A stretch of DNA of 25,432 bases, taken from a virus. Below, piece after piece: positions 1 through 8,358 of this stretch (its first letter is position 1; every line of letters begins with the position of its first letter). The position numbers and the translations under genes were made by a program. The stretch lies in the IMG/VR virus record IMGVR_UViG_3300030012_001606, positions 1 through 25,432 of that record; one strand, 5' to 3'. Below the pieces are notes generated by a model, which saw only the letters and a list, made by a program, of their open reading frames with translations, was not told where the DNA came from and ran no database searches.

Positions 1-1095
1 GTAAACCACCTTGGTAGTCAACATCCTCTTGGACCTTGTTGAAAGATTTCTCTTGTGAATACCACTGGCTACCTTGGCCCAAGCATTTCTTGAATCTCTG
101 TTCTCTTGCCCATCAATAGGAAATGGTGGTAACTCTTCGTCTTCTTTTGAAGGTAACCCCTCAACCTGTACATTGTTGTCCCAAGCCCATAACACTACAG
201 CCAATACATTCTGATTGATCTCCCAAGGCGTACGTTGGATGAGGTTAACAGCATCCATAGGAATCTTTAGTTTCTTTGGGTCCAGTGATCTTAAAAACTT
301 TTGGTCATGGCTTTTTATAAAAGGGAAACTTGGAGAGAATCCATCCTCCTCACTTGCCTTGTAACCCCCCTCCCACACTTGCTCCCAGTTTTCTGGAGGA
401 TCTATTGTCGGCATCCAAAAAGGATCAAGGATTGAATGATGGGTGTTGTAATTTTCTAGCCAATCAAGTGTCTCTTTGGTCGCTGCGACATAGCGAAGGA
501 TTCTTTTATTGTATGAGTTTTTGCGTATGTAAATATATTCAATCAGGCCAGTGGACACACGCAACAACTCAACTAAATTAGTGCCACAAGAAATCCTATC
601 CCTTCTGCTCCAGGGATCAAAGTTTTTCATGCCCTCCTTCTTTTCTTCGCTTCGCATAGACAACTGAATGTGCCTGTATTGGCTAGCCTTTGATCTTGTC
701 TTGGCTCCCTTGATGATACCCTTGCCCTTTGGGTTGGTCTTAACAAGGTAGGTACACATAACCTCTCGCTCTATGTACTTACCAACAGCATACGCAAGAG
801 ATGCCAAAGTCTTTTTTTTAGGTAACTCATCAAGCACAACCTTGAAGCATATAAAGGAAACCTTTTTCAAGTCGTAGCTCATTAGGTCACCTTTCCACCT
901 TGTAGGTCTTCCACCCTTTTCTTTTTTAAGAAGCTGCTTTACTCTTTTGTGAAACTCAGGCAACAACTCACGCATTATCTTTTGCCCTGCCTTTGATCTT
1001 GATATCTCATCATGGTCCCTTGCGCTCTCCCACTGCGAATTGTAACGGCCTATGCCAATCTCTGACATCTCTCTGTTCAGTTCACTTTGATCCAT
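1..1095 (-). CDS. T7-like single-subunit RNA polymerase, N-terminal part (runs off left edge)
   Basis: The minus strand reads open from an ATG at 1095 to base 1: 365 codons with no stop, and the gene continues outside the window. An in-frame TGA just upstream (1114-1116) supports this start; I see no clear Shine-Dalgarno sequence. The protein matches the N-terminal half of T7 RNA polymerase by motif order: DPWSRRDRISCG around 160-170 (T7 EAWSSWHKEDSI), PTIDPPENW then EGGYK around 229-246 (T7 CVVPPKPW...GGGYW), TPWEINQNVLAV around 289-300 (T7 TAWKINKKVLAV), and NAWAKVASG with a basic RSKR segment near the edge (T7 TAWKRAAAAV, KSRR). The catalytic palm and fingers are off the window and cannot be checked. 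This family transcribes phage middle and late genes from phage-specific promoters. The gene follows int and the attP core on the same strand, an unusual and probably regulatory arrangement. Confidence 0.93.
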   Translation of the reverse strand, partial: MDQSELNREMSEIGIGRYNSQWESARDHDEISRSKAGQKIMRELLPEFHKRVKQLLKKEKGGRPTRWKGDLMSYDLKKVSFICFKVVLDELPKKKTLASLAYAVGKYIEREVMCTYLVKTNPKGKGIIKGAKTRSKASQYRHIQLSMRSEEKKEGMKNFDPWSRRDRISCGTNLVELLRVSTGLIEYIYIRKNSYNKRILRYVAATKETLDWLENYNTHHSILDPFWMPTIDPPENWEQVWEGGYKASEEDGFSPSFPFIKSHDQKFLRSLDPKKLKIPMDAVNLIQRTPWEINQNVLAVVLWAWDNNVQVEGLPSKEDEELPPFPIDGQENRDSRNAWAKVASGIHKRNLSTRSKRMLTTKVVY

Positions 1096-1220: not shown

Positions 1221-1262
1221 AGAACCTAAATCTGGCGTGTCTACCTGTTCCACCACAGCCGC
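1221..1262 (-). other. attP core: 5' half of a tRNA-Leu(UAG) gene
   Basis: On the minus strand, 1262 to 1221 reads as the first 42 nt of a tRNA-Leu: acceptor strand GCGGCTG, TG, D-arm GTGGAACAGGTAGACAC, G26, anticodon stem CCAGA, loop TTTAGGT with anticodon TAG, then TCT. The stem's 3' strand should continue GG but reads CC, so tRNA similarity ends there and there is no T-arm or 3' acceptor strand. A tRNA fragment of this length directly downstream of a tyrosine integrase is the classic phage attachment core. A comparable 42-bp tRNA-Leu match beside int was reported for Prochlorococcus podovirus P-SSP7, and pelagiphages use tRNA sites. It is not a functional tRNA gene. Crossover probably occurs in or near the anticodon loop. 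Confidence 0.82.
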
Positions 1263-1293: not shown

Positions 1294-2424
1294 CTAAGCG
1301 AGTTTTTCTCCCTTATTTTTTTCTGAGGATTTGTCAGAGTATTCAGACATATTTGTCACCTTTTTGTCAGGAAACTCCAGAGCATTGTCTAAAGCGCAAA
1401 GTGCTTGCCTTAAATTGTGAGGCGCAAGCTTCGCATAACGCATCGATTGCTCGAGAGTTTTATGGCCCAACATACTCTGTACCAAAGGAATTGAGCCAGT
1501 CGCTTGTATGATCCTGGAGGCACATGTATGCCTTGTTAAATAAAAGACAAAATCTTTGTCAGTTGATCTGTTCATGTGACTTCTCACTTTATCCCACATG
1601 GATCTAATCCTTTCCTTGGTCCAGTACTTCCACAAATACTCTCGGTGTTGATTGTTCTTGTAAGCTAACAAAGCTCTACGAGTCAACGGCACAGTTCTTT
1701 GTTCTCCGTTTTTTGTATGAAACAAATCAACAACGTAACCAAGATGCTCATCCTTTCTTATGTGATGTGGTTTTATAAATCTAGATTCAATTGGCCTACA
1801 TCCAGTGTCCACTTGCCACGAAAAGAAATCACTAAAGTAATCTTCACCTTGCTCCTCAAGATAACTCAGTATCTCCATCTCTTCGTCTTTGGAAAAGAAA
1901 ATCAATCGCTCATTCTTTGTCTTCAAGAACTTGCTTTTAGGAAACTTAGGTTTTTTTGCAAGCAACGGAGGATCGTGGTCCACACAATAATTAAAGGCAG
2001 TACTAAGCGTTGCCAACTTCAAACGTATTGTTGCAGGTGCATTACCCGAATGCCTACACTCACTTACAAACTCATTTATCATGGTTGTCGTTATGTGCTT
2101 TATCTTTGTCTTAGGACCAAAAGCTTTCTCAAACATCTTTGAATGAGAGAACGCATTGTCCCAATTAGGTAACCCCTTCCAGTGCATTTCTAACACGAGA
2201 TCAAACATCTCTCTTAGGTTCATGTTGTCATCAGGGCCACTGCTTGCACCCTTAACACCTTGAACATCAAGACCATACTTTAATCTACCACGACTCTCTT
2301 CTTCCCACCTGGATGCGTCGGTTTCATTGTCAAAATACTTTCTGTACCTTTTGCCCGAATGCATGAAGTCTGCAAGATAAGATACAATTTCATTACGTTT
2401 GTTTCGTTGTGGACGAACTGCCAT
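1294..2424 (-). CDS. int: Tyrosine-family site-specific integrase
   Basis: A 376-residue tyrosine recombinase that would integrate and excise the phage genome at the adjacent tRNA-Leu-derived attP. An N-terminal arm-binding/AP2-like region (about 1-60) is followed by a SAM-like core-binding domain (about 68-150) and the catalytic domain. Visible catalytic residues are R210 (TGCRPIE), K238 (HTKNG), R298 in YLTRHT, H321 (MLGHK) and the nucleophile Y330 (MRYAKL). The first His of the usual HxxR box is Tyr295, a tolerated substitution. The ATG at 2424 is preceded by AAAGGAGGT (2433-2441), the strongest Shine-Dalgarno in the window. A consensus host-type promoter lies just upstream. The 3' end contains TTTGTCAG repeats that may be arm sites, and two GCATTCGGG motifs lie in the gene. 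The tail beyond about 355 is polar and probably disordered. Confidence 0.95.
   Translation of the reverse strand: MAVRPQRNKRNEIVSYLADFMHSGKRYRKYFDNETDASRWEEESRGRLKYGLDVQGVKGASSGPDDNMNLREMFDLVLEMHWKGLPNWDNAFSHSKMFEKAFGPKTKIKHITTTMINEFVSECRHSGNAPATIRLKLATLSTAFNYCVDHDPPLLAKKPKFPKSKFLKTKNERLIFFSKDEEMEILSYLEEQGEDYFSDFFSWQVDTGCRPIESRFIKPHHIRKDEHLGYVVDLFHTKNGEQRTVPLTRRALLAYKNNQHREYLWKYWTKERIRSMWDKVRSHMNRSTDKDFVFYLTRHTCASRIIQATGSIPLVQSMLGHKTLEQSMRYAKLAPHNLRQALCALDNALEFPDKKVTNMSEYSDKSSEKNKGEKLA
1330..1370. repeat. Putative integrase arm-type sites inside the int 3' end
   Basis: Three direct copies of the TTTGTCAG octamer occur at 1330-1337, 1352-1359 (TTTGTCAC) and 1363-1370, with start-to-start spacings of 22 and 11 bp, that is on one face of the helix. 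They overlap the last codons of int and face similar copies on the far side of the attP core. A lambda-like P' arm is the simplest reading; binding is not demonstrated. Confidence 0.45.
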
Positions 2425-2493: not shown

Positions 2494-2520
2494 TAAGTAG
2501 TTGGTTTTGTTGAATGAGGA

Positions 2521-2553
2521 GCAGGAAGAAAAGCAAAAAAGAAAACTTCCTGC
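2521..2553. other. Inverted repeat in int leader region
   Basis: A perfect 8-bp stem, GCAGGAAG (2521-2528) with CTTCCTGC (2546-2553), encloses an A-rich (plus) or T-rich (minus) 17-nt loop. It lies upstream of the int promoter and downstream of a small membrane gene. No U-tract follows directly on either strand, so I do not call it a terminator. Confidence 0.5.
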
Positions 2554-2598
2554 CCCCATTCGTTTTAACCTAACCACCAAATAACATATAGAAGTGAA

Positions 2599-2632: not shown

Positions 2633-2770
2633 TTACTCAATGACGTTTGTATCTTTGCGCTCGTGAATATCTTTGTCAACATCACAAACGGAAAAAAATC
2701 TTAGGATCAATACGTTTAAAATAACCCATAAAATAATAACAAGTAACGCAATCATATCTTTCCTGTTCAT
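2633..2770 (-). CDS. Small single-span membrane protein (45 aa)
   Basis: A short minus-strand gene begins at ATG 2770 (MNRKDMIALL...) and encodes 45 residues. An internal ATG at 2755 would give 40 residues and has AGGAAAG about 5 nt upstream, so it may be the true start. Residues 7-27 are almost entirely V/I/L/A/F with one Trp and form one membrane helix; a polar, charged C-terminal tail (DVDKDIHERKDTNVIE) follows. It starts 6 nt after the stop of the DnaA-like gene, as expected in an operon. The function is not recognised. Small membrane proteins in phage early regions often act on the host envelope or in superinfection exclusion, but nothing here shows that. Confidence 0.6.
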   Translation of the reverse strand: MNRKDMIALLVIILWVILNVLILRFFSVCDVDKDIHERKDTNVIE

Positions 2771-2776
2771 TCAATA

Positions 2777-3151
2777 CTAAAGCACTATGTAATCAACCAG
2801 TCTATTTACATATGGCAACAACAAATGCCTCCTACCCTCAGTTGCCCGAATGCCCTCAAGATCATCAAGGGCCACTCCTACAAGCACCTTGTCTTGCCCG
2901 AATGCATCACAAACTTCTTCCAGGTTACAACCAAACTCACTCACTAATGTATAAATGATTATGTTTCTCCATCGGATTATGTAGTTCTTTTTTAGTTTCT
3001 TTATCTGGTCTGGAGAATACCCCGTCATTTCTGATGCACCCTTTAACATTGCATCAATCAGGCTATCAAGATCACCCGAATGCTTTTGCCCGAATGCATC
3101 TATGTTTTGTTCTTTTGTTTTTTGAGTTAGTGGTTGTTTTAATGTTTTCAT
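2777..3151 (-). CDS. DnaA domain IV-like DNA-binding protein
   Basis: A 124-residue protein whose residues about 45-122 resemble the C-terminal DNA-binding domain of bacterial DnaA. RWRNIIIYTLVSEF (60-73) aligns with the RQxAMYLxREL helix, and NLEEVCDAFG (76-85) with SLPEIGxAFG. The diagnostic DnaA-box recognition loop GRDHTTV is replaced by QDKVLV (86-91), so it probably does not read a standard DnaA box. The DnaA ATPase domain is absent. The first 40 residues are polar and contain DAFGQKHSGD, encoded by two GCATTCGGG motif copies; two more copies lie further along the gene. It sits among early genes upstream of int, where a lysogeny or replication regulator would fit. The fold assignment is by motif, not by search; the role is inferred. 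Confidence 0.62.
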   Translation of the reverse strand: MKTLKQPLTQKTKEQNIDAFGQKHSGDLDSLIDAMLKGASEMTGYSPDQIKKLKKNYIIRWRNIIIYTLVSEFGCNLEEVCDAFGQDKVLVGVALDDLEGIRATEGRRHLLLPYVNRLVDYIVL

Positions 3152-3165
3152 AAATATTTTATTTG

Positions 3166-3396
3166 TTAATCGTTTTCGGCAAGATCCAAGGGAAGCTCAA
3201 TGGCTTCTCCAATAATTTGATTACGTAAACTATCCATTGTGAAATCTTCGACCTCGCCTTTCCTGGGTGAAAGTTCTCCTGGTTCGGGACTTAAATTATA
3301 CTGTTTGAATGATACGAGCTTGCCAGAATGCTTTACGTATATTTTCTCGATGATGATCGGCAAGCCATTTGGCCTCAAAAATCTTATTATTTCCAT
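3166..3396 (-). CDS. Hypothetical early protein (76 aa)
   Basis: A 76-residue protein starting MEIIRFLRPNG. The frame stays open to a GTG at 3423, but that extension lies inside a terminator stem and its U-run, so the ATG at 3396 is the credible start. The N-terminal half looks like a small beta-rich domain (IIRFLRPNGLPIIIEKIYV); the C-terminal half is acidic, with SPEPGELSPRKGEVEDF. No family recognised. It is the first gene after the strong terminator at 3411-3445 and is followed 14 nt later by the DnaA-like gene, so the two probably form one unit. One variant copy of the GCATTCGGG motif (GCATTCTGG, encoding HSGK) is present. Confidence 0.68.
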   Translation of the reverse strand: MEIIRFLRPNGLPIIIEKIYVKHSGKLVSFKQYNLSPEPGELSPRKGEVEDFTMDSLRNQIIGEAIELPLDLAEND

Positions 3397-3410
3397 TTTT
3401 AAAAAAGACA

Positions 3411-3445
3411 AAAAAAGAACCACTTAAAACTAATTAAGTGGCTCT
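3411..3445 (-). terminator. Strong rho-independent terminator within early region
   Basis: On the minus strand, AGAGCCACTTAA (plus 3434-3445) pairs with TTAAGTGGTTCT (plus 3416-3427) in a 12-bp stem with one G-U pair and a 6-nt loop, directly followed by a T-run (plus 3411-3416) and a second T-rich stretch. It lies between the stop of the gene at 3458 and the ATG at 3396. It should halt most host-polymerase transcription from the early promoters before the DnaA-like and int genes. Confidence 0.85.
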
Positions 3446-4672: not shown

Positions 4673-4996
4673 TTAATTTTTAGTAATGTTCTTTTTATAC
4701 CTGGATAACTGGTTTTTTACGATTGGAATATAAAGAGAGTCGATGCAACGTATTAAGGCTTCCTCTGTATCTTCGTTGTTCAATAGATAAGAGAGGCCAC
4801 TTACAGCAAGGCAAGCGTGTAAAGATTCATGTAGGATTGTTTCAAGTGTTTCCTGGTTGCTTAAAGATTCTCTAATTGTGATAAGTTTTTTATCAATGTC
4901 ACAAAGTCCATAATCATTAATGGATTTGTATTGGATCTTGAACAACACTCCAGCAATCGATATGGATTTAGGTCTGTAAGTTTCTTTATCAGTCAT
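4673..4996 (-). CDS. Small HExxH metallopeptidase-like early protein (107 aa)
   Basis: A 107-residue protein with a zinc-peptidase signature HESLH at residues 56-60 (ETILHESLHACL), preceded by a strand-rich N-terminal part (SISIAGVLFKIQY; CDIDKKLITI) and followed by an acidic helix with NEDTEEALIRCI (about 74-85) that could supply the third zinc ligand (Glu78 or Glu79). This layout is typical of minimal gluzincin-like domains (SprT or ImmA/IrrE style) in phages. It is the first gene after the junction, hence probably the first early gene expressed. Possible roles are cleavage of a host factor or of a repressor; substrate and activity are unknown. The start at ATG 4996 lacks a good Shine-Dalgarno. 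Confidence 0.68.
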   Translation of the reverse strand: MTDKETYRPKSISIAGVLFKIQYKSINDYGLCDIDKKLITIRESLSNQETLETILHESLHACLAVSGLSYLLNNEDTEEALIRCIDSLYIPIVKNQLSRYKKNITKN

Positions 4997-6435: not shown

Positions 6436-8097
6436 CTAGAGCCAGTTAGGGCTATTCCTATGGTTCTTCTTGTTCCCAAAGTAGCTGTCAGCCATCTTTT
6501 GTAACTCTTGGTCCAGAAGATCCTCCTTGCGATCCTTCATCTTCTTTTCGGCATCTTGTGCCATCTGTTCAGACCAATAGCTCACTGCCATTGCTAAGGC
6601 ATCCAATCGGTCATCGTGGGTGATAGCACCTCTGTCTCTTGTTATTCTGGACAGTTGATAGATGAGTTGGTATTTGAGTTGGGATTCAAGAGGGTAGTTC
6701 TGAGCAGTCTGAAAGTCCTGTCGGATAACATCAGGTGATATAACAAGCTTATGCTGACTCATTACTGGCTCAAGGGTGTCAATGATCCTCTTCTCCTTCT
6801 GGATGCTGTGGCGTACTTCTTCAATCGAGCAGGGGTGTATTTTGTTTAGGAAAGGTTTAAACAACTCACTAAACATACCATCACCAAAGTTACTCTCAAC
6901 AATGATGTAGTTGACCTTATGGGTCTTTGCTTTCATTGCAAGAACCTTGAGGACATCTTCTCCGTAGCCCCCTTGCATACCTCCTGCATCAGGGACGTAG
7001 AGATATCCGTTAAGCATCTTTACAATGGCCCAGGAGGTTTCATCTCGTCCTCTTCCTGATGGGTCAATCGACATGACTGATCCAGTGAACTCAACCATGT
7101 CACCAACTTGCTTGAAAGGTCTATAGAATCTATCTCCACTGAAGCCTACGTTAGGGACATCTCCAGTCCAAGCTAGGTCTGGTGATTGCGCCCACACTAC
7201 TTTCTCAGGAGCCACCTCGTTGTCTATGTCCATTACAAGCAAGTCGTTGACCTTTAGGGGGAAGCGATCAACATCTGACAGTTTACTATCAAGCATGAAC
7301 TGCATAGCAAAGCCAGCTTTTCCGTAGCTGACCTCCCGTTCTGCCAGATCTATCTCACTAAACCTTATAGGTTCTGTGGACTTGTTCTTCTTTTCTTCAG
7401 ACACGCAAAGTGGGCTAACTCGTCCATAATAAGTTTTCTCATTATCTTTGGGAGTTATGTACTTGCAGGGCCATATGCAAGCGGTGTAGTCTCTCTCCAT
7501 CAGTTTGTTGTAGAGTGAGTCTTCACATTGAGGCGTACCCAGAAAGACAATCTTGGATTCCTTATCAGGTTTTAATATGGACTCGAACTCCTTTACCTGC
7601 TCTCCAAGCTTATCTCTCATGCCTTGCGTGGCTGAGTTGTTTGGAACCTCCACATCGTCGGCCACTATGATGTCAGCCCTGCTTCCAGTTAGTTGGGAGG
7701 TAATGCCTAGTGACTTAACACTCGGAGCATGACTAGCTGGTGCAGGACCAACATCAAAACTTATCTTTGAAAATCGTTGTTTATCTGTGGGGATCAAATG
7801 GGATAGTAGAGGCATCTCGTGGATTAGCCTCAAGGTAAACGTGGAGAAATCGTCGGCTCTAGTTTTACTGGCAGAGCATACCAGGATGTTTTTTGATGGG
7901 TCCAGAAGTAGTTGGTGTACAACGTATGCTGAACAAATCCAAGATTTACCTACGCCTCGGAAGCCTTGGATAACAGCCCTTCTAGGGCCGTTCTGCATCC
8001 AGTCAGCAATCTCGTATTGTATGTCTGTGGGGTCGGGGAGATTGAGGTGTTTCCAAACGAGGTAAAGGAAATTTCTGAAGTCCTTTAACTCTTCCAT
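6436..8097 (-). CDS. terL: Terminase large subunit (T7 gp19-like)
   Basis: A 553-residue packaging motor. The N-terminal ATPase has Walker A GFRGVGKS (45-52), Walker B IIVADDVE (143-150) and a coupling motif FLGTPQ (185-190). The C-terminal RNase H-like nuclease has D345 in SIDPSGRG, a second acidic site around E401 in VESNFGDG and D495/D496 in HDDRLDA. T7 gp19 is of similar size. It packages concatemeric DNA into the prohead through the portal, together with the small subunit encoded just upstream. The ATG at 8097 follows the terS stop by 9 nt; there is no strong Shine-Dalgarno, so translation may be coupled to terS. Confidence 0.96.
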   Translation of the reverse strand: MEELKDFRNFLYLVWKHLNLPDPTDIQYEIADWMQNGPRRAVIQGFRGVGKSWICSAYVVHQLLLDPSKNILVCSASKTRADDFSTFTLRLIHEMPLLSHLIPTDKQRFSKISFDVGPAPASHAPSVKSLGITSQLTGSRADIIVADDVEVPNNSATQGMRDKLGEQVKEFESILKPDKESKIVFLGTPQCEDSLYNKLMERDYTACIWPCKYITPKDNEKTYYGRVSPLCVSEEKKNKSTEPIRFSEIDLAEREVSYGKAGFAMQFMLDSKLSDVDRFPLKVNDLLVMDIDNEVAPEKVVWAQSPDLAWTGDVPNVGFSGDRFYRPFKQVGDMVEFTGSVMSIDPSGRGRDETSWAIVKMLNGYLYVPDAGGMQGGYGEDVLKVLAMKAKTHKVNYIIVESNFGDGMFSELFKPFLNKIHPCSIEEVRHSIQKEKRIIDTLEPVMSQHKLVISPDVIRQDFQTAQNYPLESQLKYQLIYQLSRITRDRGAITHDDRLDALAMAVSYWSEQMAQDAEKKMKDRKEDLLDQELQKMADSYFGNKKNHRNSPNWL

Positions 8098-8106
8098 ATA
8101 TTGTTA

Positions 8107-8358
8107 TTAGTTAACGTTGCTTATAGGGGGTTCCTCACCTTCTTCTTCCTCTTTAAACGGAAGAACACTTATAAGATCTTGAATCTTAGTGTCTTGTTTA
8201 AGTCCTTCATGTATGCCGTTATCTTTTAGATACTGTCTGGCAGCATTTAGCAAAGAAGGTTCTGCGTCTCCTAATTTGATGCGCTCAATGAACTCATCTG
8301 TTAGAAGATCCTGCAAGACATGCATTCTTGCTGAGTTGTCTTTATCGTTATTATCCAT
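8107..8358 (-). CDS. terS: Terminase small subunit (T7 gp18-like)
   Basis: An 83-residue acidic, helical protein (HVLQDLLTDEFIERIKLGDAEP, then AARQYLKDNGI) with a very acidic C-terminal tail EEEEGEEPP (about 71-79). Length, helix content and position between the holin-like gene and terL match T7 gp18, which recognises DNA and stimulates the large subunit. Sequence similarity to T7 gp18 is modest by eye, so the assignment rests largely on synteny. The start at ATG 8358 lies 4 nt beyond the holin-like gene's stop. Confidence 0.85.
   Translation of the reverse strand: MDNNDKDNSARMHVLQDLLTDEFIERIKLGDAEPSLLNAARQYLKDNGIHEGLKQDTKIQDLISVLPFKEEEEGEEPPISNVN

Follow-up and report, generated by a model that had tools for sequence, protein, structure and literature searches.

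The DNA analysed here, hereafter the window, is a stretch of 25,432 nucleotides from a virus record of 25,967 bases (IMG/VR record IMGVR_UViG_3300030012_001606); it belongs to a marine T7-like podovirus with its genes on the minus strand. That strand carries genes for portal, capsid and tail proteins, a terminase, an amidase, small early genes, the gene of a protein here called P0001, an integrase gene (int), an attP site and a phage RNA polymerase (RNAP) gene. The nearest relative by TerL is Ayaqvirus S45C18 (73.5%), with Roseobacter phages at 57–60%. The features of the region from RNAP to P0001 and its upstream neighbour are:

1–1095, minus strand: phage RNAP, T7-like and single-subunit, cut at the window edge
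1112–1370, no strand assigned: YTGACA repeats flanking attP on both sides, five in 300 bp against 0.5 expected
1221–1262, minus strand: attP core, the 42-nt 5′ half of a tRNA-Leu, between int and RNAP
1294–2424, minus strand: int, a tyrosine integrase
2512–2561, minus strand: strong hairpin separating int from the P0001 unit
2633–2755, minus strand: gene of a 40-aa hydrophobic peptide right after P0001, below the ORF listing threshold
2777–3151, minus strand: P0001, a stand-alone DnaA domain IV-like protein of 124 aa, ATG start
3166–3423, minus strand: 85-aa gene upstream of P0001, without a family match, GTG start with a likely ATG at 3396

The YTGACA repeats differ from the GCATTCGGG motif described below, lie at the same places in relatives and are probably arm-type sites of the integrase. 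The attP form of one relative (L012) is matched at 42 of 42 positions in marine Alphaproteobacteria including SAR116, while the form in the window itself has an exact match in none of 49 hits; the host is probably alphaproteobacterial. The hydrophobic peptide is kept at 40–44 aa in seven of seven relatives with the pattern MIALL..WV..NVLILRFFSVCDVDK, and could be a membrane partner. The hairpin after the P0001 unit is present in all relatives with its stem pairing kept and its stem sequence altered (z −5.0 to −6.5 in four), and in contig L003 it falls between P0001 and RNAP. Elsewhere among the early genes, a TTAACTTAACC-like sequence, a possible promoter of the phage or leader element, stands just 5′ of the start codons at 2424, 3754, 4139, 4562 and 4996 (minus strand), and a small early protein (4673–4996, minus strand) has weak metallopeptidase-like matches (phrog_1233, E 1e-11; DUF6782 and M78 below threshold). 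A 37-kb relative (L025/L026) carries ACTCACTCAA seven times in the sense direction versus once on the other strand, scattered genome-wide.

P0001 is predicted to have the DnaA DNA-binding fold in residues 30–124, behind a poorly ordered leader of residues 1–29. Two AlphaFold2 models reached pLDDT values of 73.5 and 80.0 (all five models of the second run fell at 73–80), and a Foldseek search gave only DnaA among its top PDB matches, at probability 1.00. Over 92 aligned residues the two models scored VIA Z 12.0 and 10.6 against the E. coli DnaA DNA-binding domain (1j1v), the best unrelated folds reaching 5.8 and 4.9, and in a viral structure library nearly all of the 50 matches listed had probability 1.00, those with names being phage proteins labelled DnaA C-terminal. 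On these models the assignment to DnaA domain IV is secure, in agreement with the preliminary description, which had proposed a stand-alone domain IV-like protein without an ATPase domain; the whole reading frame of 124 aa is indeed a single domain, and no AAA+ ATPase is present.

At the level of sequence profiles the relationship is more distant, and descent from DnaA is plausible. The Pfam model Bac_DnaA_C matches seven of nine members of the P0001 family, all under its curated cut-off (best E 0.028; P0001 itself scores 12.9 bits against a cut-off of 31.5), and hhalign gives colinear alignments of the family that cover 71 columns with DnaA domain IV of Alphaproteobacteria (E 0.014) and 45 columns with HdaB/GafY-type proteins (E 5e-4), both being single-pair E-values. 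The HdaB/GafY-type model PRK06030 (NF004688) matches eight of the nine members, the best at E 0.0048 and far below its cut-off, and the NCBIfam test of this model gave E 0.0098 and 16 bits, where the cut-off is 136. The family is thus a DnaA domain IV-only protein nearest to HdaB/GafY and outside the curated model. Searches of PHROGs, of PDB sequences and, by tblastn, of 50,697 phage records returned no relative of P0001, and 136 genomes of the order of the SAR116 genome gave only marginal matches, inside other or broken frames. The alignment-based protein scans had poor patterns, so that distant relatives may have been missed.

The loop with which DnaA reads its box is altered in P0001. Where DnaA has SLPEIGRKFGGRDHTTVM, P0001 has NLEEVCDAFGQDKVLVG, so that DKVLV stands for RDHTT, as originally noted, and the (R)DHTT signature is absent from the family: eight of nine members have QDKVLV, and L012 has HGKDDEVIA. 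The P0001 loop FGQDKVLV is of the same length as FGRDRTT of GafY-type proteins with the two threonines replaced, whereas R-D-R-T-T-like loops are retained in the HdaB/GafY-type proteins of this analysis. Lacking both the ATPase and the DnaA-box signature, P0001 is not a DnaA. It is tempting to read the changed loop as the mark of a new binding site; however, the L012 homologue has four inserted residues and a recognition loop of quite different sequence (AFGQHGKDDEVIAKITM) and is still accompanied by the same DNA motif, which makes this step of the argument weak.

That motif forms an array around the gene. Allowing up to two mismatches, GCATTCGGGYAA has seven matches in 1.3 kb (five exact and two with one mismatch), all on the minus, that is the sense, strand, and the expectation by chance is about zero. 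Four of these lie in the P0001 gene, two in int and one in the upstream 85-aa gene, exactly as first counted:

2042–2053, minus strand: GCATTCGGGTAA, in int
2351–2362, minus strand: GCATTCGGGCAA, in int
2842–2853, minus strand: GCATTCGGGCAA, in the P0001 gene, codon offset 1
2894–2905, minus strand: GCATTCGGGCAA, in the P0001 gene, codon offset 0, coding for AFGQ of the recognition region
3072–3083, minus strand: GCATTCGGGTGA, in the P0001 gene, codon offset 2, 14 bp from the copy at 3086–3097
3086–3097, minus strand: GCATTCGGGCAA, in the P0001 gene, codon offset 0
3320–3331, minus strand: GCATTCTGGCAA, one mismatch, in the upstream 85-aa gene

The place of the last copy reads GCATTCGGGCAA in L001, L002, L012, L016 and L019. 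The shorter form GCATTCGGG has six copies, versus at most one per strand in 300 Markov resamples, and apart from shifted 9-mers of the same motif no other 9-mer reaches four copies within 1.3 kb on one strand; the full 25,967-base record holds the same five exact sites and no others. As the copies use all three codon offsets (0, 1 and 2), protein coding does not explain the array. DnaA boxes, by comparison, are not in excess in the window (27 one-mismatch matches against 29.5 expected), and P0001 therefore has no local DnaA-box target. These counts also bear on the idea that P0001 interferes with host DnaA or Hda and that the motif is unrelated to it. The original description of HdaB was of an effect on RIDA, to judge from a title cited in PMC9632790, but the GafY work disputes such a role even for HdaB (PMC9632790); moreover, the HTT residues that contact the DnaA box are replaced in P0001, DnaA boxes are no more frequent here than expected, and the array would be left unexplained. 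We regard this idea as highly improbable.

The array is well conserved among related phages. Ten related contigs hold 69 sites in 55 distinct contexts with no exact site antisense, and the sites are sharply conserved over 12 positions with the consensus GCATTCGGGYAW. The int gene holds two sites whose places differ between the window and L001, L004, L012 and L016, and the pair usually remains; shifting positions within a lasting array are, on sequence comparison, a sign of binding-site turnover. Upstream of the 85-aa gene most relatives carry tandem copies with an 8-bp period (GCATTCGGGCATTCGGG), and in L012 the 8-bp tandem stands in the equivalent leader, ahead of another gene. In a relative of 37,310 bases all nine exact copies fall on one strand within 1.4 kb, so that the sites are confined rather than spread genome-wide. 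Gene and array are both present in six of six close RNAP relatives (viral contigs) with a complete upstream region, and RNAP relatives at 45–51% identity have neither the DnaA-like gene nor the array. This co-occurrence is statistically weak because it represents one lineage, the close relatives being few (about 10) and similar to one another. A search of viral contigs for the paired-site pattern gave 57 loci; those outside the known relatives were chance matches except for one 24-bp tandem repeat (L064).

The position of the sites relative to promoters is less clear. Most relatives have a tandem or triple site immediately downstream of a putative promoter (TTAACT-N16-TATTAT in L001). In L003 (6376–6726) int is missing and the DnaA-like gene, which keeps three exact copies, is directly followed by RNAP; 5′ of RNAP this contig reads TTGACAACGCATTCGGTCAATATTACTTTA, in which a copy, GCATTCGGTCAA, comes right behind a perfect −35 hexamer, TTGACA. 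The −10 element of L003 is poor (TACTTT matches three of six positions) and the promoter scan did not call it, and hence this case is only suggestive. More generally, promoter scans found no excess of promoters (in L001 five hits against 3.9 expected), which weakens any claim that involves promoters.

L003 also bears on the possibility that integration is controlled through binding of Int, or of a directionality factor that might be P0001 itself, to the array. Arrays overlap int in three clades (two of them described below) and P0001 is encoded beside int, but attP is 0.8–2.1 kb away with YTGACA repeats of its own, and L003 keeps the array without int; we consider a role of this kind very unlikely.

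As a candidate function, we propose that P0001 is a DNA-binding regulator of the early or lysogeny region, likely a repressor that acts on operators and on stoperator-like roadblocks upstream of RNAP, a reading to which we give roughly even odds (a probability of about 0.5). The 12-base sites are probably bound by P0001, given their location, their co-occurrence with its gene and the fact that P0001 is the sole predicted DNA-binder of the module besides Int and RNAP. It would probably recognize the asymmetric 12-bp GCATTCGGGYAW as a monomer or as a tandem pair, much as DnaA domain IV does its asymmetric 9-mer. From binding of this kind we infer repression, a roadblock and a role in lysogeny. 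Sites near promoters would serve as operators, while those within the upstream gene, the P0001 gene and int, all facing with transcription, would stop host RNA polymerase and so prevent read-through across int and attP into the phage RNAP gene; the hairpin after the P0001 unit would add insulation, and the sites within its own gene would let P0001 limit its own synthesis. With phage RNAP off, the prophage or an early stage would be held, and loss of P0001 would turn RNAP on and lead to lysis. Such a roadblock would need co-oriented sites on the path from the early promoters to RNAP, and an array of this kind is present. Both parts of the scheme have precedents: DnaA can hold up RNA polymerase during elongation (PMC11317965), and in mycobacteriophages the repressors block initiation as well as elongation through asymmetric sites that face with transcription (PMC9283540). 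Counting against the lysogeny role, T7-like cyanophages integrate without stable lysogeny (PMC8776855).

Control of transcription fits this anatomy better than replication. In the latter case P0001 would open an origin through iteron-like sites in its own gene, in the manner of lambda O, and the array would be that origin, as could be suggested by the DnaA-type fold, the four sites inside the P0001 gene and the tandem spacings of 8 and 14 bp. Yet the spacing is irregular overall (8, 14, 52, 178, 309 and 491 bp) and spread over 1.3 kb, sites also lie inside int, P0001 has no ATPase or helicase-loader domain, and a bias to one strand is not obviously needed in an origin. T7-like phages are, in addition, thought to use origins primed by their own RNAP, and we find an initiator rather improbable. 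A third possibility draws on Caulobacter GafY/HdaB (CCNA_01111) and the N-terminal domain of Rhodobacter GafA, which are DnaA-domain-IV regulators of transcription in prophage-like elements (PMC9632790, PMC11150451, PMC9638019). Like P0001, GafY/HdaB has a single DnaA domain IV without ATPase; it occurs in Alphaproteobacteria and is the best profile match of P0001. GafY activates transcription from positions upstream of promoters (PMC11150451), where it works with IHF and its partner GafZ. By analogy, P0001 could act together with sigma70, and possibly IHF or another host factor, to activate early or lysogeny promoters. The sites here, however, lie inside transcribed genes and downstream, not upstream, of putative promoters, and no GafZ-like partner was recognized by family matches among the neighbours (the 85-aa gene, the 40-aa peptide and int); activation of this type seems unlikely. 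The accessible sections of these papers report no dispersed co-oriented array for GafY/HdaB.

The place of P0001 in the gene order also suggests a regulator. In ten of the ten int-carrying T7-like phages of our alignment a MarR-type protein lies directly upstream of int, with RNAP downstream (nine are annotated as MarR or transcription regulator and one was placed by alignment), and P0001 has the same position relative to int and RNAP. A profile of the ten MarR-type proteins found none in the P0001 clade (G000, G001 and G003; positive controls E 1e-44 to 1e-50). The DnaA-like P0001 thus occupies the place of the MarR-type regulator. The MarR protein of LUZ100 has been proposed to repress RNAP and to regulate lysis versus lysogeny (PMC10134795). 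In these temperate T7-like phages (LUZ100 with gp10, HTVC119P, CRP-113 and others) the order is likewise regulator, int, attP and RNAP, but the MarR fold is unrelated to that of P0001, and seven of the ten MarR-slot phages have no dispersed co-oriented 9-mer array of at least four copies; Bylgja, CRP-804 and Lo5R7ANS have weak or local repeats.

Private co-oriented arrays were, to our surprise, present in two other int-carrying T7-like clades that have no P0001-type protein. Five phages of a second clade (L140, L142, L143, L144 and L146) have their own co-oriented dispersed repeat, ACAAACCGCC(A), with the core CAAACCGCC in 2–9 copies, sense only, in and around int and small early genes. In Ayaqvirus S45C18 (L020, 6765–7702) all six copies of ATCGTTGGG are in sense orientation and lie in the leader of int, in int itself (in several reading frames) and in the next gene, and a winged-helix-like 103-aa protein follows int (8043–8354). 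The int-less relatives L148 and L149 have no array. No recognizable DnaA-like protein is present in the second clade or in S45C18, and by profile the small proteins of the former are unrelated to P0001. Array and protein are thus separable, which is the weightiest point against our reading. Different motifs may be read by one shared factor (Int, RNAP or something from the host), or each clade may have a reader of its own, as would fit immunity specificities.

The arrays of these clades, which have other sequences and no P0001, together with the strict co-orientation with transcription, could also point to an element acting at the level of RNA or polymerase, such as a nut-like antitermination or processing RNA or oriented pause sites with a reader other than P0001. 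Against this, Rfam gave no match, a nut-type element needs no multiple copies, and the L003 copy upstream of RNAP, coming after a −35-like hexamer, is probably untranscribed; we give such an element a rather low likelihood. If the repressor reading is extended to all of these phages, several int-carrying T7-like clades might silence RNAP through private co-oriented roadblock arrays within their lysogeny genes, each with its own motif and a recruited reader, which in the present case would be a DnaA domain IV re-specialized from DnaA boxes to GCATTCGGGYAW. This would be an undescribed class of phage immunity, a suggestion that we offer tentatively and think more doubtful than the repressor itself.

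Among known systems, the proposed mode of action would resemble that of the MarR-slot regulators or of the stoperators of Cluster A mycobacteriophages (L5, TipsytheTRex). Stoperators are asymmetric 12–13-bp sites oriented with transcription and include operators as well as elongation-blocking sites (PMC9283540). The present array likewise consists of multiple asymmetric sites oriented with transcription. It differs in being clustered in coding sequence, whereas stoperators are genome-wide and in short intergenic spaces, and the Cluster A repressor has an HTH and a second DNA-binding domain, not a DnaA fold. With bacterial DnaA, P0001 shares the fold and an asymmetric site, and the roadblock ability documented for DnaA (PMC11317965) is what we propose for P0001; P0001 is distinguished by having no AAA+ domain and by its motif, GCATTCGGGYAW as against TTATNCACA for DnaA. 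Tailed phages in BFVD carry proteins labelled ‘Chromosomal replication initiator, DnaA C-terminal’, which have a stand-alone DnaA-C fold of about 80–200 aa, match at probability 1.00 and are 9–25% identical to P0001 among the matches listed. We know of no site array for these proteins. Stand-alone DnaA-C proteins are therefore common in phages, and a regulator made of DnaA domain IV only is not wholly new. The preliminary description had suggested that a DnaA-derived protein would be a new kind of lysogeny or replication control; the fold, the plausible descent, the conserved array and the regulator slot all favour the core of that proposal, but replication fits less well, and ‘new kind’ is too strong in view of GafY/HdaB, GafA and the many phage DnaA-C-only proteins.

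T7-like marine phages often carry integrases, and at issue is by what means a phage that encodes an RNA polymerase of its own would be kept silent; in T7-like cyanophages no repressor has been recognized (PMC8776855). With P0001 in the regulator slot and candidate sites that can be read from the sequence, this question becomes testable. If our reading is true, DnaA domain IV would be a reusable and re-targetable DNA reader, and the co-oriented arrays that recur, with sequences of their own, in further int-carrying clades suggest that immunity types in these phages may be clade-specific.
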